Made by a program: the position numbers and the translations under genes | Shown here: one piece after another, positions 28,173 to 64,000 of the stretch | Layout: every line of letters begins with the position of its first letter | Numbering within the stretch: the stretch's first letter is position 1 | Notes under the pieces: model-generated | What the model saw: only the letters and a program-made list of their open reading frames with translations | What the model was told of the DNA's origin: nothing | Database searches by the model: none | NCBI RefSeq assembly: GCF_009730915.1 | Contig: NC_052489.1 | Location: 26,653,916-26,717,915, forward strand | DNA from: Dioscorea cayenensis subsp. rotundata | Lineage: Eukaryota; Streptophyta; Magnoliopsida; Dioscoreales; Dioscoreaceae | Reading direction: 5' to 3' | DNA length: 64,000 bases

Positions 28173-29988
28173 CGCGCAAGAGAAACAAGAAGCCGAGAAT
28201 TCGAGGAGGTCGTCGTCGTCGTCGTCGTATGGGATCCGACTACCACTGCTTCAACTACTATAAACCCTAAAATGGGTGTGGAAATGTGGATCCCTCTCGC
28301 GTTGTGATGGAGATCGGTGGGTGGGGCCGTTGCTCTTTTTCTTTTAATAAGGTGGGAAAATAACGGGCATAAACCTCACTCAAAATTATTTTTTTATTTT
28401 AAAAAATATTTTATTTATTTAATTAAAATGATAAATATCCCATTACAATAAATAAATAAATAAAATATGCAAATAATTAACTGTTGAGATTTCATTTATA
28501 CCGTCAAATCATAAGTCGGTTTAGTTAATTTTCTAATTTGATTAGAAAAGATCCGGTGAAATATGATCACTAAATATATTTATATTTTTTAATGTTATAT
28601 GATGTATATGGAGATAAATTTTTAAGTTACGTTTATGTTTTTTTTTTAATATTTTTCAAATCAGACTTTTTTTTTGTTTTTTAATAAATTCTTCAATTTG
28701 AGAAATCTACAATCTACCAAAGAGGTATGTAAAAGAGATAATTTAAATTGCTTAAACGGTTTTATTTTAGAATTTTTATTTAAATGATTTCATGTGGAAA
28801 TCCTTATTTAAAATTGTTAATATCTTATGCATATTGATTTATTATTATTTTTTTTATAAAATTTGAACAAAGACAGGGAGATACGCCAAAAACCTCCCAA
28901 AAACATGGTGTCACCAAAATATTATTAACTAAATTAATTTATGTAAAAAAAAAAATTACAGAGAGAAGTTCTACATTGGAACAATACCATTGACGGGGTC
29001 AATGAACTTTTTAAATACATACATTTGGAGCTCCGGCAAATTTCTCCCCCAAGCCAACAAGACGGGCATGAGCTTTTCATACTTTTTTTACTGAAAGAGT
29101 CTCATACTAAAATATACAAGCTCTCAGATATAATATCTATTTTTATGAAAATCAGAAAAATGAGAGAAATTTTGGCCCCTTTTTTAAAATTTTTAATTTT
29201 GACCAATTGTCTAAGCCTTTTAGCATAGTAAATTAAACATATAATCAGGGCCTTACATAATGAATATTCAAGATACAAAAGCACAATTAGAACAGAACAT
29301 GACAGAGAGCTGCACACAGTGCTTAAATTGGAGAAGCATCAGGGCATTCTCCACAAACACAGTTTTGGTGTATTTGCTGTCAATTAAAAACAACTGATCA
29401 GCTTAATTCTAACATGAAAATACAGTGTTAAAAAAAATGAAGTCATTATATTTGCAACAAAGAAAAAAATCATGAGTAGAGTTTCTGTAATCTATCATTT
29501 CATTTCTAGTGTAATACACTACCACAAGCATGCTCAAGTTATTTACTGCACTTCTGGTAACTATGATTGATACATAGATAATTTGAATACTGTTTGGATT
29601 GTGCTTCCTCCATGTAAACCTTTTTTGGCTTCCAAGATTTAAGGCAATGCCCAAAAGTTCAATTGCCGAAATGTAAATCGAAGATGAGTATTTCTGCATG
29701 TCAATGTTGTTCAGAGGCAATACATTCGCACTAGCTAGTTTATTGATTACTTGTAAGCAGTTTCAAAACAGGCAGCATGAATGCGATAAGATCTGAATTT
29801 ATCCAGACATAGACAGGCATTCCTTCCATATGATTAACTATTGGTCCAACTTGAAAGCCTGAATATGTCCAACCAGAAGATGTAAAATTAATCAAATGAA
29901 AGATTAGCAATGGAATAAATCAAGGCTTTTGCATAAAAATAATATGATGTTAAGAAGGAACCCTGGAAAAGGAGGTCAGAAAATTTCC
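28173..29988. other. Intergenic region, BSL1 promoter to reductase 3' UTR
   Basis: BSL1 is read leftward from 28172, so its promoter lies in the first few hundred bases, which are GC-rich near the start and then AT-rich. The right part probably holds the reductase 3' UTR. I see no further gene. Bases 28,860-29,030 look moderately complex but match nothing I recognise. Confidence 0.5.
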
Positions 29989-32900
29989 TCAGGGGCAAGG
30001 ATTTGTGTATGTAGCATGAACTTCATTGAGTTCGACTAAAATATCTTCTGTGAGATTGACCTTAGATGCTTCGAGAACCTCGCTGAGTTGACATGGCTTG
30101 GTTGCTCCAAAAAGAGCACTAGCAAGGAGAGGATGTCTCAAAACAAATGCTGCAAACAAAGAATTACAAGAGGATTGAGTGATTCAGAGGAAAATACTTC
30201 AACTGAAAAACATGAAAGGTAACTTTCAGGTTTCTGGATATCTTGTTATCTTGATAGCAGCATATTGATGCAGTATCTGATTCCATATGAAATCACAGGC
30301 AAGTAGGTTCTTTTCTCAGCAGGCAACTGACATGCAACAGTAAAGAGTTGACTTGCTAGACAATACTATATACGAATGCAGCCATTAAGGAACTACATGC
30401 CATTAATAAATCTACCTATCAATTTACCATAGAAGAATGATGCAACTTCTTGTTTTGTTTAACTGCTCACTAAGAACTAAACAAATGCAAGGAGATATTC
30501 TGAACAAACAATTGCAAACTAGATACTTGACCATCATACCAATAGCAAGAGATGCCGGAGTAAGGCCATGCTTAACTGCAATGTTAGCGTATGCCTGCAG
30601 ATTTACAAGGCCAGCTGTCAGTTGATCATATGTTGAATCCAATGATAAAGGTACAAATTCTGATTCTTATACCAAAGCTATATAGATTTAAGAACTATCC
30701 ATCAAGAAAATTTAACCAGGTTTCCTTACCTCCTTCGCGACACTCTGAATATCCTAAGTCACCTTGCCACAGGAAAAAAAGAGAATCAAACAAGATCAGC
30801 TTACCTGAACAGCTGATTTTAAGATGGCACTTGAGAGATAATATCTAGATTCACCTTCTGAATATTTCCCTGATGAAGCAAAAGCAAGAACAGGAAAACA
30901 TCAAATTAGTTCACAGCTATTTTATGCCAATGAAGTCACACAGCAGGAAAGAGAACTTAGGTTCGTTTCTGCAACCTTGATACAGATTCATCCGTGCATC
31001 TGATGGACCACCACCAGGTAAGTAGTATTTTCCAGAAAGTATTCCCATTGCCATTGGACTATAAGCTAACATGCTGATTCTGCAAAGTTACCAGTGCAAA
31101 GGAGTTGAGTCTTGCAAAGTATTTGTATCACCGATTAATAGGCAGAGCCATGGCATACAGTGAAAAGAAAGCAAAGGTATAACTTCAAGTAAGCAAACTC
31201 CATATAGCAAGCTTTTCAAAGCATTGCTAACAACTTCAATCAATGACAATGAAGGTTCTCTATCCTCCTTTTTCCTGTGGACATAAATATAAGCTCTTCA
31301 TTCATAGAAGATACCTCTCATGATGGCAGCATTCAGCTAATCCCAAATCAAAGGTGCGGCAGAGTAAGTTGTATGAGTTCTGGTAGGAAAAAGGTATACC
31401 CTTAACAACAATACAAATGCAGATAAGATAATGAGATAGGTTACAAATGAAGCAATTTGGGATTACCTGCAAAGACACAACCTTAGGGCGAAGGCCAGTG
31501 CTCTTAGCATGTTCAAGAAACTTCATCAATCCATATGGTGTTTCATTGCTGAGGCCAATGTATCTGATCTAGAAAAGCATTCAGTCACCATCCGTGTGTA
31601 TCGGCACCGGAAAAAGTAAATGGAATTAGAATAGCATCGACTTGCAAATATCACACCTTACCAGCATCAACAGCTCTGCCTAAAGCGTCAAGCTGCTCTT
31701 CAATAGGAACAGAAGAGTATTGCCGACTTGGATCATATTCAGTTTCTCCGAACATTGGAACATAACTAAATTGCACAGTTAGGAATTAAGAAAGGTGGAA
31801 AATCAGAAGATAGCGTTCTTTCCTATAATTACAGGCATTGAATTAAGTGATCATGATGCCTTATTAAAAAGATAAAAGACTTTCAACAGACCGATCGGGC
31901 CAGTGGATCTGGTAAACATCAATGTAATCAGTGTGCAGTCTCACTAAACTGCAAGAAATCAGGAAAAAAAAAATTATTAGGACATACAATCCAATGTCTG
32001 GAAAATAATTTATCCAAAATATGAGCATTTTAGTGCTGAGATTCTACTGCACTGAGTAAATTCACGCTTCTGAACTTTCAACAATTCAGTTTAATAACAA
32101 ACCAATGTGATTGGTCAACAGTTAGAAACTATTTCAGAAACTTGAAAATAACTTTCCCTACAAGGAAAATTATTTCAAGTATAACCATAATTTGACCTGT
32201 TATCAATGGCCTCCAAGATATTCTCAGTGTTCAAAGACATGGGTCCTCCTCTAATCCAAGTCATCTGGCCGGATGGTCCACTGACCTGTACAAATACTGA
32301 TTTGTCACCTTTATAACGTTTGGATAGACAGAAAATGGAGGAAATAAAATGAATGGAAACAAATAGAACTTGTTGTAGAATAAATTTTTTTATAACAAAT
32401 TTTCATCCATTTGCCCACAGATATCATTTTCTCCAACCAACCAAACACAAGAGATCAGATTTCCCTCCATTTTCCTCTTCTTTTCCATTTTCCCTCCATT
32501 TGTCCGCAGATATCATTTTCTCTTCTTGTGCTCCAATTGGATATTTGGATGGAGGAAAACTACATGAAAATATGGGCGTTTTCTATCCTTATCCACGTAA
32601 TATTCTTCCTTCAACAAATACAAAAATCAAATCTCTCTCTTCAGTTATTTTCCCCCATCTAAATGGAACAAGAAGAAAACAACGAGAACAAGCCGCCATT
32701 ATCTATCACAAAATTACCAAATTTTATACCAAAAACCAAAACCAAAAACATTCTAGCAAGCATTAAACAAGAAGAAATTGATACTGGAAAAAGAAAACAA
32801 AACAGTCAAGACCTTTGTGGCCAAAACAACACGGTCCCGAGGTATCTTGCGCTCCTTCAACCACCGACCGACATACTCCTCACTCCTCCCATACGTAGCC

Positions 32901-33292
32901 CTGCGCTGGGGCACCGGATACCTGATTAGCAAGAAAGACAAGCAATTTCCATTCAAATCAATACAAAACATGCCATAAAACCAAAATAAATCAACAGAGA
33001 ATAATCATACATCTCCGCGCTATCAAAGAAATTGATTCCGGCGTCGAATGCCTGGTTGAGAAGACTGACGGATTGCTGATAAGAGTTCTGTTCTCCGAAC
33101 GTCATAGTTCCTGAAACCAAGGACATTCTCAATGACATCAAACACCTTCCCTTTGGATACCTCACAAGAAAGAGCGAGAGAGAGCGTGCTCGAAAGAGAA
33201 AGAGAAAGAGAAAGAGAGGGAGTGAAACCTAAGCAGAGCTTGGAGACGACGAGATCAGGAGCGAGGCTGAAGAGAGGGAGGACCATTGCCAT
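29989..33292 (-). CDS. Aldo-keto reductase, Tas-like
   Basis: Predicted NAD(P)H-dependent aldo-keto reductase of the group related to E. coli Tas; substrate unknown. Twelve exons join in frame, roughly 33292-33229, 33110-33014, 32921-32815, 32286-32199, 31948-31891, 31768-31659, 31568-31467, 31380-31316, 31079-30976, 30869-30805, 30595-30543 and 30148-29989, about 355 residues. The tetrad is visible: Asp and Tyr in FFDSAEMYP, Lys in VVLATKVSG, His in YQIHWPDR. Further landmarks are KIRYIGLSNETPYG, LLAYSPMAMGILSGKY-like ISMLAYSPMAMG, and the C-terminal FVLRHPLLASALFGATKP. The N-terminus is short with no clear transit peptide, so a cytosolic location is likelier, though an upstream ATG beyond the transposon junction cannot be excluded. 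No lesion was seen. Confidence 0.92.
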
Positions 33293-34102
33293 TATCGCTT
33301 TGAGAGCAAAAGCTCTGGGCTTTAGTAGTGGTTTAGTTCAGTGGATCTTGGCCGTTCATTATGATTTAGATGGAAATCTAAGGCTGATGTTAAACCCAGT
33401 CTCCTCACAGGCTCACACAGGGCTCAGTCTTATTTTAATTTTAAATTTAAATTTTTTAAGGAAAAATTACTGTTCACCCCTCGTAATTTTCAAAACTTCC
33501 CAAAAACCCCCTCCTACTTTTACATACCCCGGACAGATACTTCCGTTGGTGTTTAACTTCCCTTTACCCCTCTACTGCTCACTTGAATGGAGTCAGTGTT
33601 GTGAAATCCCGATTTTGGCGCGAAAATGGTGGGAAAGGAAAGCGCTAAATCACATCATGTTCAACCTTTCTGAAGGGCTTTTCGCGGTTTCGATGAGACA
33701 ATGCCTAGGAGTTGCATTACATCTTGTTGTTCTCCCTCATTATCATACCCGAAATATATAAATCGGTTGGTTGTAAAAGTTGTATTACTGACGAAGAAAC
33801 GATAATTACTGACGAGTTCATTTCGTTGTAAAGTTCTTCTCGCTTTATGGTTATCTATTTGTATATTTTTAAATAATGTTTAACTATTTGCTATTATCCG
33901 TTTAAATATTTTACTAATATGTTTTAATAATTGTCATATCCGTTTAATACTTCCCATCTCCGTTTAACATTATCTTTACATGTATAACTATTCATATTAA
34001 CGTGTAAATTCTCAAAGTCTCGCAGTAAAAGCGGTGATCTTTTTAGTTTGATCCGAATTGTTGGCGGTGGACGTGGCGGTGTGCAGGTTATGGTATCCCG
34101 TG

Positions 34103-34134
34103 CATAAGAATTAATGGCGGCATTAATTCTTATG
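34103..34134. repeat. Perfect hairpin in MULE copy A
   Basis: 14-base arms, cataagaattaatg and its exact complement, flank a 4-base gcgg loop. The same hairpin, longer, is present in copy B at about 59079-59120. Confidence 0.85.
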
Positions 34135-35069
34135 ACTGCAATATAAATTTCCGAACACCCGTTCGTTCTCATCGATCGATGTCGACCGTCTGTGCGTTTA
34201 ACTTTTTTTCTCGGATATGAAGAGTCGACCTACTTGTGGACTTCACACCATAAATAACCGGGAAGAACCCTCCCCAGTGAGACGACCATTCCTCGTCGTC
34301 CTCATCATCCTCCTCCTCCCTCTTCCTCCTCTTCCCATGGACAACCACTCTATCCGAGAAAGGATGTTTTCGTGAGCCTTCTTCCTTATCTTGAGAATCG
34401 ATTAGCCGTAATCACTGAACTAGTTAAACTATCTTTTTCTTGCCCAGGCGAAATGCTCTCATAATTGCATCGAATCGCGGAGGATTCTCCAGGTGAGATG
34501 GCGGAAAGCGATTAAGAGAGCATTTCGACTGGGTAAGAAAAGAAAGTTTTCACGTATCGCGTGATTGCGGAGGATTCTCTGAGGAGGGAGATCATGAAAC
34601 ATCCTTTAAGACGGGAGTTGACATTTACCACTGAGACTTTCTCATACCGTTTAAGAAAATGGCGTCGATGTACAACTATTAAGTTATCTGTTTAACTCAT
34701 CGGGATCTTCGTTTAAGTCACAGCCATGACACGTTGATTAATAGTCGTTTTCATGAATGTGTGTTGTTTAACCTTTTTAATGTTGATGCGTTGTGCGGGG
34801 TTCAAGTTGATGCGCATGTTATGCGATCGTCGTGAGCGTTCGAATGTACTGAGACACTTGTTTTCAGTTATACGAGGGTTGAGTCGTGAGTGTCCAAAAG
34901 TCCGAGCGGACGTTGTAAATGTTAGTAAATGTTGTAAATCTTTTATAAATAAAAGCGTAACAAGCTTTATTTGATTTGTGAACTTACGAAATTTAAACAT
35001 GAGACCTAGTAAAAACAAACAATGTGGGAAACAAAAGAGCGCTCATTGTAAACAATAGAAAAATACGTG

Positions 35070-35225
35070 AAATATGTTTAAACAAATGACAACGATGTTT
35101 AAGAAAAAGTTACTCTTTAAACAATGACAACGGTGTAAACAATAGAAAAAGTTAAACAATACTCTAGTTACTCTTTTCAACAATGACAACGGTGTTTAAG
35201 AAAAATACGTAAAGATGTTTAAAGC
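35070..35225. repeat. Imperfect tandem repeat with GTTTAA motifs, copy A
   Basis: The run ttactctttaaacaatgac followed by aacggtgt and gtttaagaaaaa occurs twice within about 150 bases. The equivalent block in copy B is at about 60,060-60,190, so it predates their separation. Confidence 0.6.
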
Positions 35226-35673
35226 GAGTGACTCCGGGAGGTACCCATCTTCAGCGCTGATGTCGGTGAAAGCATTCGATTTAAACAATAACATATTATT
35301 TACATGATATAGACTTTAGTTAAACAGGTTAACCATTATTTTTAAACACTATATGTATACTGCTTTAAACATAAAAAAAGCTTGAGCGTTTACATGAGAC
35401 TCATGTTGAGTTGAGAACATTCATTCGAGCGATGATAATATGTCTTCCTCGCGACAGATGACATATATTTCCCTTTTTGCCCTTGGGATGGAGGAAAAAA
35501 TACCGTAATCACATCACGTCTGAGTCTAACCTCTCATGTACTAACTCGCACTTTTTGTGTTTGCCTTTTCGACTGCCGTTTGTTCTTTACATCTTCTACT
35601 TCTTCTTCTTCGTCTTCTTTTTGTTCTTCACTTCATTTGGTTTATACGATTTGGTTTTTCAAATCGATATATT

Positions 35674-38235
35674 ATGGAGAGTTTTTGTGGTATTGCTAGA
35701 TTCAGACGGGGAGGGAAGGGTGCTAATGTTCATCGCTTTCGGACTTCTTGGGAGTTGGTGTTAGGCTGAGATATGATGAGCGATGGGGTCTCGAAGTTTC
35801 TCTTGTCGGGGGTTAAGTTCATCACACGGATGGATATAAAAGCGGTTTGCTCGATAGAAAAGCGATGTTGACTTCGAGCGGATGTGTCACGTCCACTCCA
35901 TCTTCAAATGTGCTTTAGTTGATCTTGTCGTCGGGAGACGTAAAAATGTGCCATTGCGAATCCTAATGAAAAGCGAGGTTTACTCGTTGTAAGTTCCTTT
36001 TCTTTTAATTATTCCAGGTTATGCAGGGGTCATTATTGTGTAAATATGTCCGTCATTTAGTTTAACATATTTGTACTAGTCGTTTTACGTTATTAGTTAA
36101 ATGCTTAAGTATTTAATTTAACGTTTAAATATTGTCGTTATCACTTAAAACATTATATTCTCAGCTTAACATATTGATCTTTTTATTTGGTGAAGTGTTG
36201 GCGGGAATTGATTAGCGAGTGCTCCCATTCATCCCCATGGTGACCACAGACGGTGTGGGATGTCTTCCTTTCCTCGTCGGATCGTTACGAAGTCTTTGTC
36301 GTTGGATATTGGACAACGTTTTGGCGAGTGTCGAACATTTCGAGGGATGTACTTGAAATCATGCGATCAAAAGAATTTTGACTTGATTTCATAAAGAAGC
36401 GAAAAAACATCGTGTGAGTATGGAATGTCTTCTTAGATGGTTGTCGTTGGCGCCTTCATGTATCAAAAGAGTATAACAAAAATACTTTCAGAATCAAGAC
36501 AATCAACCCGTCGCACACTTGCGGTGGTGGCGTAGGGTTCGACGTCGCGTCCGAAAGCGTTGAAAAATGGGTTAGCGCCGAGTGATTCGAGCGCTCGAGG
36601 GACCCGTCCCTTATGCGAGGCCGTCGACATTGAGGAAGGACATGTTGAGGAGACATGGTGTCCACATACCATACAAGCGAGGCTTGGTTGGGAAAAGAGC
36701 ATGCCGGGTGGTCCTCGGCGGCGTGACGTCTCGACTCATGTTGTTTACTTTGGTATGTGGATAAGGTGGGCTAAGACAAATCCGGCGTTGCGATCGTGGA
36801 AAGGAGGCGGTGATCGTTTTAAGCGTGCATTCTTTTCTTTCGGTAGCGTGTATTGTGGGATTCGAGAGGGCTTGCGGGCGGCTATCGCATTTTTTCTCGA
36901 TGGTACCCGCCTCCTTGGAAAAAATATCGAGGGTACGCTCTTTGGGTGCACGAGGGAAAGATGAAAACATGATGGTTTTTCCGTCGCCTTGTGTATAGTC
37001 GACAGACGAGACCGATGACGATTGGACTTGGTTCATATCTAAGTTAGGCGATGCCTTATACGAGGATGGAGATTATCATGAGATAATTACCTTCGTGTCG
37101 AGACGAGTCGAAAGGGCCTTGTGGTATGATTGCGAGTCTTCCCTTCTTCGCCACATAGACATCGCATCTTCGACATTTGGAGGCCAATTTTATGAAAAGC
37201 GATGTCGGACTTGGGGAAGGCGTTGAGGGAGGAGTCTTTGGTCTATATGCTTCCAGCATTGCGTGGGCATCCACGGCTAAAGATTTCGATGATACAGTGA
37301 GATGAGCTGCAGGCCGCATCACGAAGCTCATCATTTGGTTGATTAATAAATCGGATATGGCACATTGGTGAATTATCTGTTCGGAGGTGATCGTTGGGGT
37401 GAGATGTATTCAAAGACGTCAGCGGAGTCGTTCGATGCTTGGATCGAGGAAGCTCGTCGTTTTACTGGGTGTGCGAAAATGGTCGACTCCATGAGGTTTG
37501 CGAATGTTGGTTTACACTTAACATTTAGTGTTACCCTTTAAACATTCTCAATCTTTGTTTAATTACACTTAGTCCGACTTTTAAATTTTAATCATTTCGT
37601 TTAAATATTCTGCAATAATGTTTAAACATGTGTTTCACGTATTATTTAACCATCTGACATCTTTGTTTAACCTTATTTGCGGAGTTCGAGTTGATGCAGT
37701 ATGTTATGTAACTGGGCGTGAGCAAGCGAACAAATGGGAGACCTACTTATGCCCGGACATACATTCAGGTAGCGATCATTTGTTGAGGGACGGTACGAAA
37801 TCTCTTCGTGTTGAGTCGTTGTGTGATGATGATCGTTACGAGTGATCGACAGTGCGTGAACTACGTGGATCTAGCCATCGAGAACTTGTTCGTGTCGGAA
37901 GTGGCGAGTTTATGGTATCCGCGAAACCCGCAGCACGCTGACAATGCGACGAGACACCGGCGTACATCGATTTATTAGCGGTGCTGCCGCGTCGACAATT
38001 ACAAACTTGCGTGCAAGGAAGCTATATTCCCTACCACGGCGATAGCGGGCCTTGAGGCGGAAATCGTGAGCTTCGTTTCGCGAGCGCTGTGGCGAGAAGG
38101 CGGCTGGGAGGCCCTAGGCGAAGAGGATCGAGTCATGAGCGTTTGATGTCAGCGAGTTACATTCACGGCCACTGCCATGGATCGGTCGCGATCGAGCGAT
38201 CTTCTGATGAGGCGTGGCTGACTAGGTATTGTTAA
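35674..38235 (+). pseudogene. MuDR-type transposase remnant, MULE copy A
   Basis: Fragments of one transposase appear in order but in shifting frames. They are an N-terminal block (ATG at 35674, then GLEVS and KFITRMDIKAV), a DNA-binding region (36.55-36.72 kb), WYVDKVG-like and RFKRAFFSFG blocks, the catalytic-domain start FLDGTRLLGK (about 36.89-36.95 kb), RHLEANFMKS (about 37.17 kb), GDRWGEMYS (about 37.39 kb), and a C-terminal DNYKLACKEAIFP block (about 38.0 kb). This order is that of plant MuDR/MULE transposases (PF10551 core, then SWIM region). Single-base indels break nearly every block. GTTTAA-rich non-coding stretches at 36.0-36.2 and 37.5-37.68 kb look like introns. It cannot make a full protein as written. 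Confidence 0.8.
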
Positions 38236-38267
38236 TAAAGCCGGCGATGAGCGAGGGAAACGTTGTG

Positions 38268-38800
38268 TATTGATGGAGTTGTTTCCATATTTAAACTCTT
38301 ACTCTTTACAACGAATTGAATGTATTTAATCGAGGACGTTGTTATTTTTAAATGGATGCTGACTGTAATTTGAAATATTTTTCAAGTCGATGTTTTAAAG
38401 CGATATATGGTATATTTAAACAATGAAGCGGAAATGTACTAAAACTACGGCGTAAATTAAACAATGAAATGACTGAATGAAATTTAACACTGCCTTCTGA
38501 TTGAAAACAAACAAACTATACATTGAGATATACAAGTTATTGATGGCGACTTCCCGTATTTATTTAAACAATGAATGCGTTTAGTTAAGCAGAGAGCAGG
38601 TGTTATTTTAAGCGATTTGTACACCGTATTTTTGAAATATTTAAAAGCGATGTTTAAACGATATATAGTATATTTAAACAATGAAAGTGAAATGTACAGC
38701 AATTAGAGCGTAAAATTAAACAATGAAATGGCGAATGGGAATTTAACACTGCTTTACAATTCAAAAACAAACAAAAATTTACATTAACGTATACAAGTAC
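38268..38800. repeat. About 265-bp tandem duplication in MULE copy A
   Basis: Two diverged units, about 38268-38535 and 38536-38800, share landmarks in order: attgatgg, gttatttt, tttgaaatatttt, gatatatggtatatttaaac / gatatatagtatatttaaac, aaattaaacaatgaaatg and acaagt. Copy B has one unit, about 63258-63520. Confidence 0.7.
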
Positions 38801-38899
38801 GTGCTCTTGAACACGAAAACAATGAATTGAATTTGTCCGATTTACATTCGAAAATAAAATTGACATTCGGATATCTGAGGACGTGTTCTTGAAAAACAA

Positions 38900-39694
38900 A
38901 ATTTAACCCGCTTGTGGCGAGCTCCCTTTATGCGTGGCGCATGTGCCACTCCCTCATAAGTATCGCGAGTAACATGGATCGAGGTAAGGAGCGTGCATGC
39001 TGCGGTGGCCGTAACTCTCGCCCCAAAGTAATTGCTCGATAAAGCGCTAGCGTGGGCGGTAGCGATCGGCCTTCCTTGTAGGCGTGGGATTTCTATGTCA
39101 TCTGGCGAGTGGGTACTTTCGTAGTCGCCGACTCAGTGGAACTCCATATCGATAGCCTGATTGTCGAGATAGATTCATTGTCGAGGATATGCAAGTCGAG
39201 ATTAGAATATACGATTTAAATACCAAAGCGGATATTAATAGGACATAATTAAAAGAACTTACCATGTCAGCAGCGTCCTTATCGTACCGGACGTGAAGAA
39301 TAATGCTGTATTCTTGTTTATCGTTGTCGGGGACTGACGACATGGAAGTGGCCATTCATGATTATCGGGAGGATGACAATTTGAACTTCATGCGGTTCTG
39401 CGCTGGCATCGATCATAGCCATAATTGTGTCGTGTCGTCGTCACAGCTTGGGCGTAAGCAGTGTAATCGATCACGGTGATGGGCGCGTTCTTGTAAGGAT
39501 ATGGCTCTTTGCTTTCGGCGACTTTTGTATTATGCATCTGGCGTCCATCACGTCATCGATGACCGTCTCGCTTCCCCTCAGCGCGTGTATAATTTGTCGC
39601 GTGTGGTGCTCTGTCGTCGTTGCTTCCTGACAGTCATCTTGAGGTTAACGATATGAGATATAATTAGACCGTATTAAAAAATATTTAAATGATA
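38900..39694 (-). pseudogene. ULP1-like cysteine protease remnant in MULE copy A (5' end in gap)
   Basis: Read on the minus strand, this gene converges on the transposase. NGHFHVV at 39336-39356 followed, after a one-base shift, by PDNDKQEY matches the His...Asp core of ULP1/SENP (C48) proteases. A donor follows (GACATG|GTAAGT, about 39263), and an intron ends near 39,166. The next exon reads DMEFH, then DIEIPRLQG, a FIEQLLWGE block, and a final R-MREWH segment. The equivalent exon in copy B keeps the catalytic-Cys neighbourhood better. Several frame shifts and a stop make it non-functional as written. ULP1-like genes in MULEs are known (KAONASHI-type); I infer the same class. The weakest point is that no single open frame covers the domain. 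Confidence 0.6.
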
Positions 39695-40694
39695 NNNNNN
39701 NNNNNNNNNNNNNNNNNNNNNNNNNNNNNNNNNNNNNNNNNNNNNNNNNNNNNNNNNNNNNNNNNNNNNNNNNNNNNNNNNNNNNNNNNNNNNNNNNNNN
39801 NNNNNNNNNNNNNNNNNNNNNNNNNNNNNNNNNNNNNNNNNNNNNNNNNNNNNNNNNNNNNNNNNNNNNNNNNNNNNNNNNNNNNNNNNNNNNNNNNNNN
39901 NNNNNNNNNNNNNNNNNNNNNNNNNNNNNNNNNNNNNNNNNNNNNNNNNNNNNNNNNNNNNNNNNNNNNNNNNNNNNNNNNNNNNNNNNNNNNNNNNNNN
40001 NNNNNNNNNNNNNNNNNNNNNNNNNNNNNNNNNNNNNNNNNNNNNNNNNNNNNNNNNNNNNNNNNNNNNNNNNNNNNNNNNNNNNNNNNNNNNNNNNNNN
40101 NNNNNNNNNNNNNNNNNNNNNNNNNNNNNNNNNNNNNNNNNNNNNNNNNNNNNNNNNNNNNNNNNNNNNNNNNNNNNNNNNNNNNNNNNNNNNNNNNNNN
40201 NNNNNNNNNNNNNNNNNNNNNNNNNNNNNNNNNNNNNNNNNNNNNNNNNNNNNNNNNNNNNNNNNNNNNNNNNNNNNNNNNNNNNNNNNNNNNNNNNNNN
40301 NNNNNNNNNNNNNNNNNNNNNNNNNNNNNNNNNNNNNNNNNNNNNNNNNNNNNNNNNNNNNNNNNNNNNNNNNNNNNNNNNNNNNNNNNNNNNNNNNNNN
40401 NNNNNNNNNNNNNNNNNNNNNNNNNNNNNNNNNNNNNNNNNNNNNNNNNNNNNNNNNNNNNNNNNNNNNNNNNNNNNNNNNNNNNNNNNNNNNNNNNNNN
40501 NNNNNNNNNNNNNNNNNNNNNNNNNNNNNNNNNNNNNNNNNNNNNNNNNNNNNNNNNNNNNNNNNNNNNNNNNNNNNNNNNNNNNNNNNNNNNNNNNNNN
40601 NNNNNNNNNNNNNNNNNNNNNNNNNNNNNNNNNNNNNNNNNNNNNNNNNNNNNNNNNNNNNNNNNNNNNNNNNNNNNNNNNNNNNNNNNNNNNN
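39695..40694. other. Assembly gap of exactly 1000 N
   Basis: 1000 undetermined bases, a usual scaffold placeholder rather than a measured size. It hides the right end of MULE copy A and perhaps sequence downstream of the metallo-hydrolase. Confidence 0.99.
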
Positions 40695-47320: not shown

Positions 47321-48780
47321 TTTAAAAAAAGGGATGTAGAAAGCTCACGATGATTTACAGGAAAAAGAAAAGGATTGTAAAGTCATAGTTTAAAACTAGA
47401 GAAACGTTTAGTCAGTTTCACAAGGTATAAGTGGCAGCAATCATATCATATAAGCCATTAAGCCATTAAAGCTCTCCTGTCATCTTCTTCTTGTTTCTGT
47501 TTCACTTTGGTGTTTCATCCTTTGCTGTATTATTCTATCCTTTGCATATATGCTTAGTGTATTGACTTCATTGTCTGTACTCTCTCTTCCAATAACTAAA
47601 TGTCCATTTGCTGTCATGCTCCCTAGCTCTCTAATCATTCATCCATGAAGTTAACTCAACCTCAACATGCATTCCCCTACTTTTCTGATTTCCTATTTCT
47701 TTCTTTTTATGGCACTGATTTTTCATACAAGTGTCAAAGTGTGATGAGAATAATTAAAGCATGAATTATATATAGTGGTGTGCATGCAGATGCAGATGCA
47801 GATGTAGATGTAGATGCAAAGTGTTAAGTTTAAAGCAAGAGTGGAATACTGTTACAGAGATGGGTAGCAAGTTCTGATCATCTTTCTTTTCTTTTATGAT
47901 TGACCTTGGAGACAATCTATTGGACACTTAACCATTTGTCTGGGTTATGGCAGGCCAAAATCTTATATAAATGCTATAAGGGTTAATAATAATAATAATT
48001 AGTTCATGTAATCATGGGAAGTAAATGAAATAATGAGTTTGGTGGTTTCAGAAATCAAGGAATGTATATATATATCTTCTAATTAAAGAAATGCTAGCTC
48101 ATTGTTCTTTAATGAAAAAGTTTTAAAAAAAGGAAAAAAAAAAATAAAAACAGGGTGCTTTTTGAAAAGGTGGAAAGAAGGGGGAGTGTTGAGTTTGGGT
48201 GATGAAAAGGTGGGTGTGAGACCAATGTCCATCCACTCTAACATCATGCATTGTCTGCTTAGGGGTCAGCATTCAGCTCCTTTTCACATGCTCACAGCTT
48301 TGTTTTCTCCCCCTTTTTTTCCTTAATAAATTCACTCACATATTAATAATAATAATAATAATAAATGTTTAAAATTACTAACATGCTCCTCTCTATTATG
48401 TGTTATTGGATTTCAAAATCTAAATATATTTTTAAAATTAATTTTAATTTGATAAAAAATGGACCCACTATAGACTCTAGAGTTTTTTATTTCCATAATA
48501 ATAATTAATAATTAAGAAGTAAATAGCAACATGATGAAGCAACGATTCTGATTGATCCTCAGGCCCGTGGCTCCTCCCCACGCTCATCATAACGGTCGGT
48601 GAGGGGCGCTACCACTCGTCCACCTCAGCTGTACGACTACCAACACTGTACTCCTTCTCGTTGTCATGGGTCCCATGTCTTTATCCAATATTAACTTTAC
48701 ACGTGTAATCTAATCACTCTTTTGCTGTTCGAAACCAAACACCTCACTTTTCTAACAAAAAAATTCATTTTTTTCGCCGC

Positions 48781-48790
48781 TTTATATATT
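48781..48790 (+). promoter_or_regulatory. Possible TATA box of the JAC1-like gene
   Basis: tttatatatt lies 76-85 bases upstream of the ATG at 48866, followed by a CGAT/GA-rich leader. Spacing suits a plant TATA element. Confidence 0.4.
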
Positions 48791-49847
48791 TCTCCATTGG
48801 ACTCGAATCGCCGGCTTCTCATCGATCGATCGATCGAGAGAGAGAGAGAGAAGCAGAGCCGTTAGATGGACGAATCGTGGAGGATCTCGATGGGATCGGT
48901 GGTCCCTCGTCGGCGTTCCACCGAGCAACACCGGCCGCCGAGGAGCAGCGGCGACCTCAACCCCGATGACTTCCGTGACGTTTTTCGGCGGCCCGCCGAG
49001 GACCGTCCTACTCCGGCGATTCTCGGGAGATTTTTTTCCCCGCAACCGGCAGCGTCGCTCTACGACGAGATCTTCCGGCCGGGTGAGTACGGGTTCCAGA
49101 CATCAAGGGCGGGGAGGAGCTTGCCGGCGTTCATGATTCCGGTGGCGAGGGGTGGGGGAGGGTGTTGAGGACGGAGGAGGGTTCTATGATGATATATTCG
49201 GATCGGGAGGTGGAGATCGGAGGTCGAGATCGAGATCGAAGTCGAAGTCTAGGTCGACTTCGTCGTCGGTTTTGAGTTCCGAGGATGTGAGCCCGCCTCT
49301 CCGCCGCCACATCGGCGACGATGCCGTGCTCTCTTCCTTCGCCTCCAAGCTCAGGTCTGCGCCTTTTGTTAACTAACCCTCATGATATCTTAAATTTAAA
49401 AATAAATAAATAAATATATATATAGAGAGAGAGATTTTTTTTGGCGTTTATATGGAAGGAAAAGGGAGGGAGGGAAACTATATTTGATTTTTGGAATTAT
49501 TAAAGTAAAATCATTATATTGTTTCATGAATAATAAAGCATTATATATTTTTTTTTATTTAAAATATTCATTTATTCCATAATTTCCAGATAATTAAACT
49601 AGTATTTGATATATAGCACCTCATAATATTTTTTAAAAAATAAATGAAAATACAAGGAATATTCATTAAAAAAAAAAAATTCTCATAGTCCCACAATTAT
49701 ATCTAACTAATCAAACACCTGTCTGTGATCAATCAAATCTGAAAAATATCTGACATGACACATAAGAGACCCACTCTTCAATGTTTGGTGTTGCTAATTT
49801 AAATCCATATATTTATAATTTTAAATTTTATAAAACATTTTTATTAT

Positions 49848-50739: not shown

Positions 50740-51089
50740 CCTGCAGATTGACTCCAAGGAAACAAGTGAAGACATGGATAGTAGTAGTAGATGGGTGGTG
50801 TCTTGAGTATGTTACATCATGATGTGCTTCCAGTGCAGTGATTAGTAGTCACTCTGTTTGGTTTTCGCTCTGATTTTGGAGTTTATGTGAATCTATGAAC
50901 AACTCATACTTTGATATGCTTCTTGTATCATTCTGAATATTCACTACAAGGACTGAAAAGAAGTTTGGAACTATTATATATATATATATATATGTACACA
51001 TTACATTCTCAATGTTAATTACAATAACTGAGAAAGAGTTGGCTCAAAATAACAAGCGAGCACTGTGCCTTACGGTGGAAAAGAAATAG

Positions 51090-52000
51090 CCATGTTTTGA
51101 AAACCGGACCGGACCGGCCGGTCGGACCGAAAAAACCAGGAACCGGCCCATAGCCCGGTCCGGTTTTAGAATTAATGTTGACCGAATTTTGAACCGGTCA
51201 AACCCGGTGAACCGGCTGGTCGGACCAAAACCGGATGGAACCCGGTTTTCAATTTTTATTTTTGTTTTTGTTTTTTTGTTTTTTTGTTTTTGTTTTTGTT
51301 TTTCTTTTGTTTTGTTTTTGTTTTTAAGAAAGGACTTTAGGGCATGAATTGGGCTTTTCTTTTTTTCTTTTTATTTCGTGATCTCTTTGAGTTTTGATTT
51401 GTTGAAAATATTATTTTGGATTTTTGGAACTTTGGAGTTTAGAGGTATGAGAAAAATTAAAAAGAAAACTTGTAAATTGTTTAAGAGGTATAGATCATTT
51501 TAGGATTTATTTTTTATTTTTATACTTTTTATTTTTAATGGTAATGATGATCGAAATATGAGAATTAAATTAATCATACTTAGTTCTAGTTTTTGTTTTT
51601 GAATTTTTTCATGCCTTGTCTCATCCTCACATAATTAGTAATTTAATTAGTTGTTTAATTTATGTAGTTATCATCATCCATTTATGATTAATAGATTAAG
51701 AAATAAAAGGTTTAGGGGAATTGTATTTGTTGCTTTATCTAGATTAATTATTTGAATCTTCAACCATTTTTGATAAAAATCATAATGATATTAAAATAAA
51801 TATTTAAGATAATTATGATTAAAAATATAATAAAGTTTGTTATTATATGTATATATATATTCTATATATATAATATTTAAGATAATTATTTATTTATGAC
51901 GTCATCCGGTCCGATCAAAACGGGTCATCCGGTTGAACCGACTGACCCGTGACCCAAATATGAGACCGGTTCGCTATCCGGTCAGGTTTTAAAAACATTG
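51090..52000. mobile_element. Non-autonomous hAT-like element 1
   Basis: 911 bases flanked by the exact 8-bp direct repeat agaaatag (51082-51089 and 52001-52008). The left end ccatgttttgaaaacc and the complement of the right end, caatgtttttaaaacc, differ at two of 16 bases. Both ends carry CCGG/CCGGT-rich sub-terminal tracts. An 8-bp duplication with CA-type ends is the hAT pattern. There is no transposase ORF. It lies downstream of the JAC1-like gene, where a J domain would be expected. Confidence 0.8.
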
Positions 52001-52175
52001 AGAAATAGTCATTTAAGTTACATTTGATTGTGTTCCTACGGTTCACATTAATTATGGGGGGAAAACAGGATAATAAATACTACAAATTTTTATTAAGAAA
52101 AAAGAGGAAATAATCCTATGAATGAAAGACAAAAGGTGCGTGTTTTCTTTGCCTCAGCGTCTAGTGTTTCATATT

Positions 52176-57733: not shown

Positions 57734-57873
57734 GGGGAAATTACTGTTCACCCCTCGTAATTTTCAAAACTTCCCCAAAAACCCCTCCCTACTTTTTACA
57801 CACTTTGACGATTCTTCCAGTTAGTGTTTAACTTCCCTTTTACCCCCTACCGTTCACTTCAAATGGGTCCATG

Positions 57874-58503
57874 CAATGTTATCAAAACCGGCCCGGACAT
57901 CGACCCTGGTCCCAGGCTTGGTCTCGGGTCATTCGGCTCAACCGCCGGGTCATTCGGGTCAATGCCGGGTTAATAAAATTATTTTAAATATTATTTTTAA
58001 AATTATAAATTAGTTTTTAATTCTATAATAATATATAACATTTATTTATTATTTGTTATCAAATAAATAATTTGAAGGGACAAAAATAAATTATAAAAAT
58101 ACATGACAAGCATAAAAGTTAAAACCGATACATAATAAAATTTCAAAATTCAAGCTCTACATGACATAACAGACTCAACCTAATATCAAACTCATTCAAA
58201 TATTCCATACATAATAAAACACAACACAATATCATATGAATCCATAGTGAAATTTCAAATTTAATCAAACCAACTCAATCCAATACATAACAAAAGTTAC
58301 AAAAATTAAAGGATGAAAATGTCATTTTATAAACAAGCATTAACCCGCCTGGGTCATTTGAAACTCCGTAGGTCACATCGGGACTTTGGCGTCACACGGA
58401 GTTGATTACATGTCCGGTCTAATTAGGGGACCGGACCGGTTTAATCAGTGGTCATGGTCGACTCGGTCGAACCATGGGGCCGAGTCCGGGTTTGATAACA
58501 CTG
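57874..58503. mobile_element. Non-autonomous hAT-like element 2, nested in MULE copy B
   Basis: 630 bases flanked by the exact 8-bp repeat ggtccatg (57866-57873 and 58504-58511). Ends caatgttatcaaaacc and, complemented, cagtgttatcaaaccc match each other and element 1. Sub-terminal CCGG-rich tracts are shared. MULE copy A (near 33,588-33,600) has the uninterrupted site, so insertion followed the split of the MULE copies. Confidence 0.85.
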
Positions 58504-58689
58504 GGTCCATGTTGTGAAATCCCATTTTTGGCCTTGAAAATGGTGGGAAAGGAAAGCGCCAAATAACATCGTGTTCAACCTTTTCGAAGGGCTTTTCGCT
58601 TGGTTTCGATGAGACAATGCCGAGAGTTGCAGTTACATCTTGTTGTTCTCCTCATTATCATAATCGAAATATATAAATCGGTTTCTCAA

Positions 58690-58800
58690 AGCAGAAAATG
58701 AAATTGATTTCCATCAGATTGGTCAAGTGCACTTCATCTTCGAATGAGTCATGAGTCGATTTTTATTGTCGAGGCACGAAAGATGTGCCATCTGTCGCCT
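58690..58800 (+). repeat. Copied transposase fragment in the 5' region of MULE copy B
   Basis: This stretch, absent at the same place in copy A, resembles the transposase N-terminal region of the same element at about 60,920-61,000; shared words include ttcatcttcgaa/tccatcttcaaa and atgtgccat. It replaces a short stretch near the settled start of the non-coding region. Confidence 0.5.
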
Positions 58801-59078
58801 TCTCGCTTTATGGTCTGTAAAGTTGTATACGACGAGAAGAACTATTGTTTAAATAATGTTTAACTATTTGTTATTATCTGTTTAAATATATTACTAATAT
58901 GTTTAATAATTGTCATATCCGTTTAATACTTGCCATCTCCGCTTTAACATTATCTTTACATGTATAACTATTAATATTAACGTGTAAATTATCAAAGTCT
59001 CACGTAAAATGGAGATCTTTTTCGTTTCGATCTGAATTGTTGGCAAAGCGGCAGCGGCAGTGGCAGGTTATGGTATCC

Positions 59079-59120
59079 CGTGCGATAAGAATTAATGACG
59101 GCATTAATTCTTATGCACGG
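59079..59120. repeat. Hairpin in MULE copy B
   Basis: The arm ccgtgc-g-ataagaattaatg pairs with cattaattcttatgcacgg across an acgg loop: 19 paired bases with one bulged g. It is the counterpart of the copy A hairpin. Confidence 0.85.
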
Positions 59121-60712
59121 TAACATCAAATATTTGAACACCCTGCTCGCTCTCATCGACCAATGTCGACCCATCGATGCGCTTTAACTTTTTTTCTCGG
59201 ATATGAAGAGTCGACCGCTTGTGGAATTCACACCATAAATAACCGGGAAGAACCCTCCCCACGGACAACCACTCGCTGCGTCCTCATCATCGTCCTCCTC
59301 CTCCTCCTCCTCGTCCTCCTCTTCCCACGGACTAACCACTCTATCTCGAAAGGATGTTTCGTGAACCTTCTTCCTTATCTTGAGAATCGTTTTAGTCGCA
59401 TGATCACGCAACAAGTTAAACTATCTTTTTCACGCTCAAGTCGAAATGCTCTCATAATCGCACGAATCGCGGAGGATTCTTGATGCTGGATCGACGCGCA
59501 AGCAATTAAGCGAGCATTTCGACTTGGGTAAGAAAAGAAAGTTTTCACGTATTCGTGATCTGCGGAGGATTCTCAGAGGAGGGAGATCGGAAACATCCTT
59601 TAAGACGAGGTTGATATTTATCACTGAGACTTTCTATTACCGCTTAAGAACATTACGTCGGTGTACAACTATTACGTTCTGTGTTTAACTATCAGGATCT
59701 TCGCTTAAGTCCGACCATGACACATTGATTAATAGTCATTTTCATGAATGTGTTTGTTTAACCTTTTTTAATGTTATGACGTTAGTGCGAGTTCAAGTTG
59801 ATCGCGCATGTTATGCAACCGCAGTGAGCATTCGAATGTCATGGAGCACTTGTTTTCGTTATCACGAAAGTGTCGAGTCGTGAGTGATCAAAGTCCGAGA
59901 GGACGTTGTAAATGTTGTAAATCTTTTATAAATAAAAGCGAAACAAGCTTATTTGAATGTGAACTTCACGAAATTTAAACGGAGACCTAATAAAAACAAT
60001 GTGGGAAACAAAAGAACGCCATTTATAAACAATAGAAAATATGTAAATATGTTTTAAACAGTGATAACGGTGTTTAAGAAAAAGTTACTCTTTAAACAAT
60101 GACAACGTGTAAACAATAGAAAAAGTTAAACAATACTCTAGTTACTCTTTTAAACAATCGACAGCGGTGTTTAAGAAAATACGTAAAGATGTTTTAAGCA
60201 GTGACCCGTGAGAGTACCCATCTTCAACGCGATGTCAGTGAAAGTATTCAATTTAAAGAATAACATATATTTTAAACAGTTAAATAACTTTATTTAAATG
60301 GTATACGTATTATTTACATGATATAGACTTTATTTAAACCGGTAATCGTTATGTTAAACACTATATCTATCCGTTTAAACATAAAAATACCCTGACGTTT
60401 AAACGAGACACTCATGTCGAGCGATGATAATATGTCTTCATCGCGACAGTGACATATATTTTTACTTTTTTGCCCTTGGGATGGAGGGAAAAATACCACC
60501 CAATCACATCACGTCTAGTCTAATCTCTATGCACTTTTTTGTCTTCATCGTCGACGAATATATATATATGCACTTTTTGTTCACTATCCGACTGCTGTTT
60601 GTTGTTTACATCTTCTTCTTCTTTTTCTTCTTCTTCTTCTTCTTCTTCTTCGGCTTATTTTTGTTCTTCATTTCATTTGGTTTAGTACTGATTTGGTTTT
60701 CGACGATATATT

Positions 60713-63225
60713 ATGGAGAGTTTTTTGTGGTATTACTAGATTCGACGATGAGGGAAGAGTGCCTAATGTTCACGGCTCGAGACTCTTGGGAGTTGGTGTT
60801 AGTGAGATTTGTGAGCCGATGGGGTCTCGAAGTTTCTATTGTCGTGGTTAAGTTCATCACACGGATGGATATAAAACGGTTTGCCCAATAGAAAAGCGAT
60901 GTCGACTTCCAGTGGATGGTACGCGTCAGCTCCATCTTCAAAATGTGTCAGTAATTGATCTTTGTCGGGCGAGATGTGAAAATGTGCCATTGCTGAATCC
61001 TAACGAAAACGAGTTTTACTCGTAGTAAGTTCCTTCTCTTTTAATTGTTCCAGAGTTATGCGGGTCATTAGTGTTTAAATATGTCCGATCACTGAGTTAA
61101 ACTCTCTGTACTAGTCGTTTATATTATTAGTTAACTGCTAAGTATTTAATTTAACGTTTAAATATTGTCATTATCACTTAAACATTATATTCTCAAGCTA
61201 ACATATTGATCTTTTCATTTCGATCGAAGTATTGGCAGGAATTGGATTCTGCAGGTGCTCGATTCATTCCCATAGTGACCACGGCGTGGGATGTCTTCCT
61301 TCCTCGTCCGATCATTCGAAGTGCTTTTCGTTGGATATTGGACAGCGCTTTTGTCGATGTCGAACATTTCGAGGATGTACTTTCGAAATCATACAATCAA
61401 AAAGAATTTTGACTTCAAATTCATAAAGAACGAAAAACATCGAGTGATCGTGGAATGCTAGCTCGATGGTTTGATCATCAGGCGCCTTCACGATCAAAAG
61501 AGTATAACAAAAATACTTTTCGAATCAAGACAATCAACCCGTCACACACTTTGCGATGGTGGCATAGGGTTCGAGCGTCGCATCCGAAAAGCGTCGAAAA
61601 ATGGGTTAGCGACGAGTGATTCGAAGCTCGAGGGACCGTCCTCATGCAAGGCCATCGACATTCGGAAGGACACGTTATGAACATGGTGTCCACATACCAT
61701 ACAAGAAGGCTTGGTTGGGAAAAAGAGCATGCCCGAGTGGTCCTCGACGCAGCTGACATCTCCACTATGATCTGTTGCTTTGGTATGTGGATAAGGTGGG
61801 CCGAGACAAATCCCGGCGGCTTGCGATCGTGGAAAGAGAGCGGTGATCGTTTTTAAAGCGTGCATTCTTTTCTTTCGGTAGCGTGTATTGCAGGATTCAA
61901 GAGGGCTATGCGGTGGCTAGCATTTCTCGATGGTACCCACCTCCTTGGAAAATATCGAGGTACACTCATCAGGTGCCACGAGGGAAAGATGGAAAACAAT
62001 GGTTTTTCCAGTCGCCTTGCTATGATAGTCGATAACTGAGACCCGACGCCAATTGGACTTGGTTCATATCTAAGTTAGGCGATGCCTTATCACGAGGATG
62101 GAGATTACGCCTAGTGAGCGCATTGATGAGAGTCTTCCCTTCTTCGCCATACGATACTGCTCTTCGACATTTGGAGGCCAATTTTATGAAAAGCCCGATG
62201 TCGGACTTGGGAAGGCGTTGAGGGAGAGTCTCTGGTCTATATGCTTCCGCATTGCGTGGGCATCCACGGCTAAAGATTTCACGATACCCTCGAATGAATC
62301 CGCAGCCACATCACCCGAGCTCATCACGTTGATTAATAAATCGGATATGCAGCATTGGTCGAATTATCTCGTTCGGAGGTGATCGTTGGGGTGAGATGTA
62401 TTCAAACGTCGCGAGTCGTTCAATGCTTGGATCAAGGAAGCTCGCTCATTTCTAGGTGGCGAAAAATGGTCGACTTATAAGATCCGCGAATGTTGGTTTA
62501 CACTTAACATTTTAGTGTTACCCTTTAAACATTCTCAATATTTGTTTAATTACACTTTTTCGACTTTTAAATATTAATCCTTTCGTTTAAATATTTACAA
62601 TAATGTTTAACCATGTTTACGAATTATTTAACCATCATCGTCTTTTGTTTAACCTTATTTGCCGGGTTCAGAGTTGATGCGCATGTTATGTGAACGCCGT
62701 GAACAAGCGAACAAACGGGAGACCTATTTATGCCCGCATACATTCAAGGTAGAGATCATTGTTGAGGACGACCGGGAAATCTTCGTGTTGGTCGCTGTGG
62801 TCGATGATCGTTACGAGTGATCGACCAGATCAGACGAACTCGTGGATCTCGCCATCGAACTTGTTCATGTCGAGAGGTGGCAAGTTTATGGTATCCCTTG
62901 CAAAACATGCTTGCTAGCAGCGAATAACGCGACAGCACACCAACGTACATCGATTTATTAGCGGGTACTTCACCGTCGATAATTACAAACCGGGCGACAA
63001 GGAAGCTATATTCCCCATACCCGACGATGGCGGTGTTCGTACCTGAAATCGTGAGAGCTTTGTTTCGGCGCATCCTGACGAGAAAGCGACTGGGCGGCTC
63101 TAGACGAAAAGAGGATCAGTCGCATGGCGTTTCGATGTCCGCTGAGTTACATTGCAGCCTGCCGCCATGGATCCCGGTCACAATCGACGTATCTTCTAAT
63201 GAAAGCTCGTCACGACTAGGCATTG
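60713..63225 (+). pseudogene. MuDR-type transposase remnant, MULE copy B
   Basis: Same block order as copy A with different breaks: ATG at 60713, GLEVSIV and KFITRMDIK (about 60.82-60.88 kb), a YHTRRLGWEKEHARVVLDAA-like stretch (about 61.69-61.75 kb), FLDGTHLLGKYRGTL (about 61.92-61.97 kb), DANWTWFISKLGDAL-like region (about 62.05-62.09 kb), RHLEANFMKS (about 62.16-62.20 kb), GDRWGEMYSN (about 62.38-62.41 kb), and a C-terminal RKR...LHCS knuckle region (about 63.08-63.16 kb). FLDGTHLLGKYRGTL is the start of the MULE DDE domain. Frame shifts between blocks prevent one protein. Confidence 0.8.
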
Positions 63226-63619
63226 TTAATAAGCCGATGACGATGTGGAAACATTGTGTATTGATGGGCAACTTTCCATATTTAAACTCTTACTTACTCT
63301 TTACAACGAATTGAATGTATTTAAACAGAGACATTGTTATTTTAAACGGATATACTGTAATTTGAAATATTTCAACTGATGTTTAAACGATATATGGTAT
63401 ATTTAAACAACGAAAATGTAAAATGTACACAACTACAACGTAAATTAAACAATGAAATGAAATCGAATGAAATTTAACCTCGCCTTACAATTGAAAAACA
63501 AACAAAATTTACATTGAGATATATAAGTCATGTTCTTCGAACACGAAAAACAACGAATTGAATTTGTCCGATTTACATTCGAAAACAAAATCGATATCGG
63601 ATATACGAGGACATGTTAT

Positions 63620-64000
63620 TCAAAAACAAAAATTAACCCGCCGTGACGATCCCCTTTGTCATGGACGCCGACTGCCCTCCCCTCCTTAAGTATGCGGGTA
63701 ACATACCTTAATCTGAGGTAAGGAACGTCTGTCTGCTGAAGTCGTGAACTTCTCACCCCAAAGTAATCTGCCGATAAACCGCATGACGCTAGGCCAAGAA
63801 TCGACGCTTCCTTGTTTTCGCATGGGGTTTCTATGTCGCGTGCACGAGTGAGTACTAGTTGTCACGACTGGCTGAACTCCATATCGCACACAAATGTCGA
63901 ATAGATTCCACTGCCGAGATATGCAAGTCGAGATTAGAATACCGATTTAAATACCAAGCAGTATATTAATCGGACATAATTAAAGAACTTACTATGTCCA
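63620..64000 (-). pseudogene. ULP1-like cysteine protease remnant in MULE copy B, cut by the window edge
   Basis: A minus-strand reading at 63889-63686 contains KQGSVDSWPSVMRFIGRLLW and continues GEKF; another frame supplies YVTRILKEGRA. In ULP1/C48 proteases the catalytic Cys sits in a Q-x(n)-DCG context. Here the bases at the DCG site (63794-63802) read Asp-Ser-Trp, as one-base shifts of DCG would. Upstream lies the same intron boundary as in copy A. The His...Asp part lies beyond 64000. Confidence 0.6.

Follow-up and report, generated by a model that had tools for sequence, protein, structure and literature searches.

A yam MULE family pairs a predicted C48-domain gene lacking the canonical Asp with phased GTTTAA arrays

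Does a gene that faces a transposon's transposase, and that resembles a ULP1-like protease, belong to the transposon, and would its product act as a protease or as a binding module? This question is raised by a stretch of 64,000 nucleotides from the yam Dioscorea cayenensis subsp. rotundata (G000, contig C19, positions 26653916-26717915; hereafter the window), which we analyzed together with the 584 Mb genome (2249 contigs). The window holds two incomplete copies, A and B, of a multi-copy MULE family with an element length of ∼9–10 kb and degenerate terminal repeats (Table 1), and the identity of the element as a MULE plus a C48 gene is almost certain.

Element copies and convergent genes

The left end of copy A, GGAAAAATTACTGTTCACC, corresponds to the element end of full-length copies. 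At its other side the copy is cut by exactly 1000 N at 39695-40694, a scaffold gap of conventional length, and the right part of the element, which measures ∼3 kb in full-length relatives, is either missing or inside this gap; the sequence beyond the gap showed no homology to these relatives. Copies A and B have 82% of aligned bases in common over ∼5 kb. About 650 bp at 57863-58509, between the left end and the remainder, occur in copy B only and may be an insertion of another element. Just to the left of copy A, at ∼32800-33300 on the minus strand, the sequence resembles by eye the first exons of an aldo/keto reductase gene.

The element ends were located with 11 genome copies, six of which (L052-L057) span both ends and are 9.2–9.7 kb long. 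An exact 9-bp target site duplication flanks three of these six, and the remaining three agree at 5–6 of 9 positions; as a control, none of 30 mismatched left–right flank pairs agreed at 8 or more of 9. A looser count, which allowed 16 offsets and covered nine copies (three with misplaced ends), gave 3 of 9 vs 5 of 72 mismatched pairs. The 60-bp ends form degenerate inverted repeats with 36–39 identical positions (z 4.8–6.3 in five copies).

Table 1. Coordinates of features of the two MULE copies in the window
Feature	Copy	Position	Strand	Remark
MULE copy	A	33460..39694	+	left end to N gap; incomplete
MULE copy	B	57734..64000	+	left end to window end; incomplete
Predicted transposase gene	A	35674..38225	+	frames broken; MuDR DNA-binding domain, MULE domain, SWIM finger, CCHC knuckle
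Predicted transposase gene	B	60713..63219	+	frames broken
Predicted C48/Ulp1-domain gene, 3′ part	A	38903..39694	-	intron ∼39163-39262; open-frame relatives match PF02902
Predicted C48/Ulp1-domain gene, 3′ part	B	63633..64000	-	last exon and part of intron
Conserved His codon CAC of NGHFH	A	39348..39350	-	counted from translation
His+17 codon TCT (Ser)	A	39297..39299	-	catalytic Asp position in C48 proteases
Catalytic Cys position, CGC	A	39062-39064	-	from translation
Catalytic Cys position, TCT (Ser)	B	63797..63799	-	from translation
GTTTAA array, left non-coding block	A	33820..34060		4 sites, all on one strand
GTTTAA array, left non-coding block	B	58836-59020		5 sites
GTTTAA array upstream of transposase	A	34600..35420		16 sites
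GTTTAA array upstream of transposase	B	59600-60400		14 sites
GTTTAA, transposase intron 1	A	35990..36195		2 sites
GTTTAA, transposase intron 1	B	61030-61225		4 sites
GTTTAA, transposase intron 2	A	37515..37690		6 sites
GTTTAA, transposase intron 2	B	62495-62665		5 sites
GTTTAA array between convergent genes	A	38225..38880		8 sites, 7 on one strand
GTTTAA array between convergent genes	B	63230-63620		7 sites, 6 on one strand

The transposase is predicted to be MuDR-like on the strength of profile matches. A read-through assembled from copies A and B matches PF03108 at 2.4e-11 and PF10551 (MULE) at 1.3e-5, the latter with 26.0 bits and thus just under the cut-off of 27.6, and a consensus of 13 transposase sequences matches the SWIM domain at 2.5e-8; the CCHC knuckle was recognized by eye. 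In copy A the stop codons of the transposase (∼38223-38225, plus strand) and of the C48 gene (∼38903-38905, minus strand) face each other tail to tail, and those of copy B lie at ∼63217-63219 and ∼63633-63635, respectively. This convergent layout, which the first-pass annotation had described, recurs in all 12 copies that occur, within 5 kb, among the 40 matches listed by each of two genome searches. The 12 comprise copy A and copies on contigs C2240, C1 (two), C354, C11, C3, C619, C219, C19, C9 and C5. The common exon–intron structure that had also been noted is borne out by the matching position, in copies A and B, of the intron that precedes the last exon. Outside this group, a transposase tail convergent to the C48 gene was recognized by eye in a divergent relative (L003); in a sister family (L001, L004 and L005) the strand opposite the C48 gene likewise shows, by eye, a transposase tail that has SWIM- and CCHC-like motifs.

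Maize MuDR consists of two convergent genes, mudrA and mudrB. The comparison with this pair made in the first-pass annotation is upheld for the convergence, and it covers layout only: the second gene of the yam element is the predicted C48 gene, the termini are degenerate, and published KIU/VANDAL elements are nearer. The class is known, as had been anticipated, and the convergent ULP-bearing layout is already in print as well: in available passages, Benjak et al. (PMC2528002) report that the ULP domain of KI-MULEs runs opposite to mudrA and that grapevine MULEs carry ULP either way round; for grapevine, melon and rice the arrangements include ULP downstream of the transposase in reverse orientation, as in yam, and those passages describe neither arrays nor catalytic residues.

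The C48 gene and its catalytic positions

A search of the genome with the 845-bp C48 stretch, in which the best 40 of 1708 first-look candidates were scored, recovered copy A and at least 39 other places at 81–85% identity, each over at least 839 query bases. Because of these matches, and because open-frame copies exceed the PF02902 cut-off, the stretch is more than a chance resemblance. The window copies themselves gave no PF02902 match at E ≤ 5, neither as raw frames of the C48 stretch in A and B nor as read-throughs of either copy or of a chimera of the two, and the chimera found no match in the PDB at E ≤ 10 with phmmer. A first consensus of 28 copies was discarded: it mixed orientations and had no C48 match, and its lone match, to a viral zinc-finger model (E 0.18), was taken as chance. 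One reading of the corrected consensus, completed with letters from L028, reached PF02902 at 9.3e-4 and 19.5 bits, just under the cut-off; a second, longer reading had no PF02902 match.

A protein search of the genome yielded at least 240 matches, and many of those listed were free of stops. Six open-frame regions (L060-L065) were read, and the four of these that were searched against Pfam all scored above the PF02902 gathering score of 20.7, with 23.9–35.7 bits (L064, 1e-8; L061, 5.1e-7; L060, C-terminal part, 6.4e-7; L063, 4.3e-5; stops are written as X in the translations of L064 and L063). In L061 the His exon and the Cys exon are free of stops and shifts, share one phase, and are joined at a GT...AG intron. 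Since these open-frame copies exceed the profile cut-off, the gene facing the transposase is identified as a C48 gene. Two further C48 matches, L006 and L007, lie in surroundings where nothing MULE-like was noticed, and are possibly host ULP genes (VPQQKNEYDCGVFVLYYMERF in L007).

The peptides on which the proposal of a protease had been founded are present in three-frame translations. On the minus strand, copy A gives ...VQIVILPIIMNGHFHVV, followed by VPDNDKQEYS after a shift of one base, and copy B gives the Cys-region peptide KQGSVDSWPSVMRFIGRLLWGEK in a single frame. The assignment of the Asp of PDNDKQEY as the catalytic Asp proved wrong, in that it stands at His+7, whereas the catalytic Asp of SENP1 aligns with His+17, a Ser. 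We surveyed 38 sequences (both window copies, L003, L010-L038 and L060-L065), of which all except copy B cover His+17. The His codon is CAC in 36 of 37; the residue at His+17 is Ser in 36 of 37, Asp in none, and unreadable in one. A pattern search of the genome for the Asp version of the Ser-type motif found no place. At the Cys position the codon is TGC in 22 of 37 sequences, including five of the six open-frame copies, CGC in 10 and another codon in four; the last, L003, gave no anchor and reads VDC. The C48 gene thus keeps His and, in most readable copies, Cys, and has Ser in place of the canonical Asp in every readable copy.

Alignment with characterized proteases bears out part of the expectation that a consensus frame would match PF02902 with His, Asp, Gln and Cys in register. 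The match exists for the four open-frame copies, with His and Cys aligned; the consensus fell short of the cut-off, Asp is absent, and Gln pairs with that of SENP1 only via a one-residue insertion before Asp-Cys. With phmmer, HFHVVVLDNDKQEYRHYSSC aligned with a segment of SENP1 in a weak match (E 0.042). The His and Cys motifs align with those of SENP1 and yeast Ulp1, but the yam sequences differ in having Phe for the Trp that follows His, Ser for Asp, DCA for DCG, and a Gln–Cys distance longer by one residue. The Asp is kept in a sister MULE family of this genome (L001, L002, L004, L005 and L008), which reads HYDS; its pattern HYDSIGG occurs at 23 places in the genome, and the reversed control at none.

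Broken frames and selection

The frame breaks of the assembled copies are concentrated at CAG/CTG. When 31 other sequences were compared with the majority of the six open-frame copies, the 14 CAG/CTG sites were retained in 17.9% of 308 cells and differed in length in 35.7%, vs 76.2% of 15033 cells and 6.8%, respectively, for other C/G triplets without CG. Triplets with CG were kept in 48–65%, and those of A/T only in 89.2% of 3609 cells. Copies A and B keep CAG/CTG between them in 12% of 134; 1-bp gaps fall on CG of the shorter copy in 11 of 96 cases against a background of 5.9%, a weak excess.

CAG and CTG are main targets of CHG methylation in plants. We infer that sequence errors at methylated CHG sites lie behind the breaks. 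Methylation differences between lineages likely lower nanopore basecalling accuracy, according to a passage in PMC9749173. Real decay of old copies would be the other account. It is favored by the independence of indel number per copy from CAG/CTG depletion (no correlation; rho -0.08, p 0.65) and by the milder contrast obtained against the copies' own consensus (identity 0.61 for CAG/CTG, 0.64 for CG-containing and 0.79 for the rest). The size of the CAG/CTG deficit relative to the open-frame copies and its recurrence between A and B speak against decay, as does the small share of C-to-T type changes (33 of 253 changed CAG/CTG cells), and we rate it as unlikely. Frame breaks in the repeats of this assembly may therefore be technical, and calling such elements dead on their account is unsafe.

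Copies A and B have a CpG observed/expected of 1.42, and the six open-frame copies have 1.23–1.38, against a background of 0.43; such richness is unusual for a plant transposon, which is expected to lose CpG by methylation. The idea that the CpG richness of 1.42 is itself the artefact was dropped because the open-frame majority is also CpG-rich (1.25). Elsewhere in the window, positions 48501-49500 carry a signature as in the MULE copies (82 CG per kb, CAG/CTG observed/expected 0.38, TCG 1.88), and this tract had no match to the MULE copies in a self-comparison of the window. Smaller tracts high in CG and low in CAG/CTG lie at ∼4001-5000, 27751-29000, 51001-52250 and 56001-58500.

The apparent divergence that the first-pass annotation attributed to the family is largely a feature of the sequence as assembled: among the six open-frame copies, dS is only 0.01–0.10, with dN/dS of 0.20–0.67 on few changes. 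With up to 116 codons compared, L003, which also reads YSSC, gave dS of 0.61–0.70 and dN/dS of 0.23–0.27 against these six (for L003 vs L060, Fisher p 3e-7); all of these copies came from protein and profile searches, which favor conserved copies.

Motif arrays and the role of the C48 protein

The non-coding blocks of the element carry GTTTAA motifs with ∼21-bp phasing, and the exons carry none. In 13 non-coding segments of A and B, drawn by hand from the alignments and totaling 4072 bp, GTTTAA/TTAAAC occurs at 71 sites vs 9.5 expected from dinucleotide shuffles; nine coding segments (5177 bp) contain 0 sites, and the remaining 49,806 bp of the window 40. With palindromic overlaps collapsed in ten segments, adjacent sites lie 19–23 or 40–45 nt apart in 17 of 28 cases in each of the two copies; the null means are 3.2 and 3.4, and the observed value was reached in 0 of 5000 randomizations, although A and B are related and do not provide two independent tests of spacing. 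Eight genome copies contain 32–48 motifs each. Runs on the same strand are weak in these eight (p 0.012–0.17, or 0.08–0.35 with palindromes counted twice), and the short flanks of three of them hold 2.4–3.7 motifs per kb. The density is 2.5 per kb in L003 and 0–0.58 per kb in the sister family. The intergenic array of A contains an 80% direct repeat (38369-38537 and 38631-38798) that is present once in B, a difference to be expected if arrays grow and shrink. In the intergenic block of the sister family (L001, L004 and L005; ∼2270-2780 of the locus in gene orientation), CTATTC occurs three times at 60–61 bp; as a motif array of that family, these triplets are too weak to claim.

Several published systems resemble this arrangement. 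KAONASHI (KI) MULEs, or KIU elements, of Arabidopsis are likewise non-TIR and of high copy number, with C48 reversed relative to the transposase (Hoen 2006, as cited in portions of PMC2528002, PMC6117577, PMC6117582 and PMC13317346). In the excerpts available, their C48 domains are described as intact (PMC6117577), unlike the yam domain with Ser for the catalytic Asp, and no study of their protease activity is said to exist (PMC6117582). VANDAL21 and VANDAL6 share with the yam element the degenerate terminal repeats and the dense motif arrays in non-coding blocks, including introns; according to parts of the sources, VANDALs have degenerated TIRs (PMC10398659), and the VANC21 protein of VANDAL21 binds a short motif that is densely arrayed, in one orientation, in non-coding regions (PMC5735166). 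The yam motif differs, being GTTTAA with ∼21-bp phasing rather than YAGTATTAY, and its same-orientation runs are weak. According to the section consulted of a 2026 review (PMC13317346), the VANC genes that carry ULP (KIUs) act on elements of their own families, and what the Ulp1 domain does in these transposons is unknown.

The yam element is likened to KIU/VANDAL elements because of its layout, ends and arrays, and it is unlike them in the catalytic Asp and the motif. By analogy with the Arabidopsis elements, the transposase would move the element, and the ULP-domain protein would have an accessory function, acting via the GTTTAA arrays, as putative binding sites, on copies of its own element, and may thereby counteract silencing. 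Lacking the Asp, the ULP fold would be chiefly a module for binding SUMO or substrates, or else a weak protease, and not a standard SUMO protease. We regard this reading of a KIU/VANDAL-like MULE with an accessory, array-directed ULP protein as evenly balanced between belief and doubt. For the protein taken by itself, we suggest tentatively, with slightly more doubt than belief, an accessory and probably anti-silencing role in which the fold would more likely be a binding module than a standard protease. The most specific version, an anti-silencing system in which a ULP protein that is no longer a standard protease reads, alone or with a partner, its own 21-bp-phased GTTTAA arrays, is possible but doubtful.

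The protein could instead be a working isopeptidase with an altered dyad or triad (His, Cys and Ser or another residue for Asp) that removes SUMO from chromatin or transposase proteins, or removes a similar modifier. Conservation of His and, in more than half of the sequences, of TGC at the Cys position is consistent with such an enzyme, as are a PF02902 match that spans the whole catalytic core and selection on the protein. The absence of Asp from every copy read, DCA in place of DCG, and the displaced Gln weigh against it without any of them excluding activity, and on balance we consider a working enzyme unlikely. A more distant alternative is a passenger role for the C48 gene, which would then be a fragment captured from the host and without function for the element. 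ULP in MULEs was treated as transduplication by Benjak et al. in the part of their article consulted (PMC2528002), and the frames are broken in many copies; but the low dN/dS of L003 against the open-frame copies, at a dS well above theirs, the same convergent gene in the sister family, and the many stop-free protein matches among those listed make a passenger improbable.

The arrays, for their part, might be transposase binding sites, or plain AT-rich periodic sequence, with no relation to the C48 protein. Transposases also bind repeated sites, GTTTAA is AT-rich, and same-strand runs are weak. Such an origin accords poorly with a count far above dinucleotide shuffles and phased at ∼21 bp, with the spread of motifs across introns and the intergenic block rather than at the ends alone, and with their low density in the sister family; we think it somewhat unlikely. 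Within a narrow literature search, GTTTAA arrays with ∼21-bp phasing are new here, and for the reading in which the C48 protein is an accessory factor they indicate candidate DNA for binding assays. The sister MULE family of the same genome, with the Asp kept and few GTTTAA motifs, provides a natural comparison. With an Asp-less family under protein selection beside an Asp-bearing sister, the choice between protease and binding module becomes directly testable.
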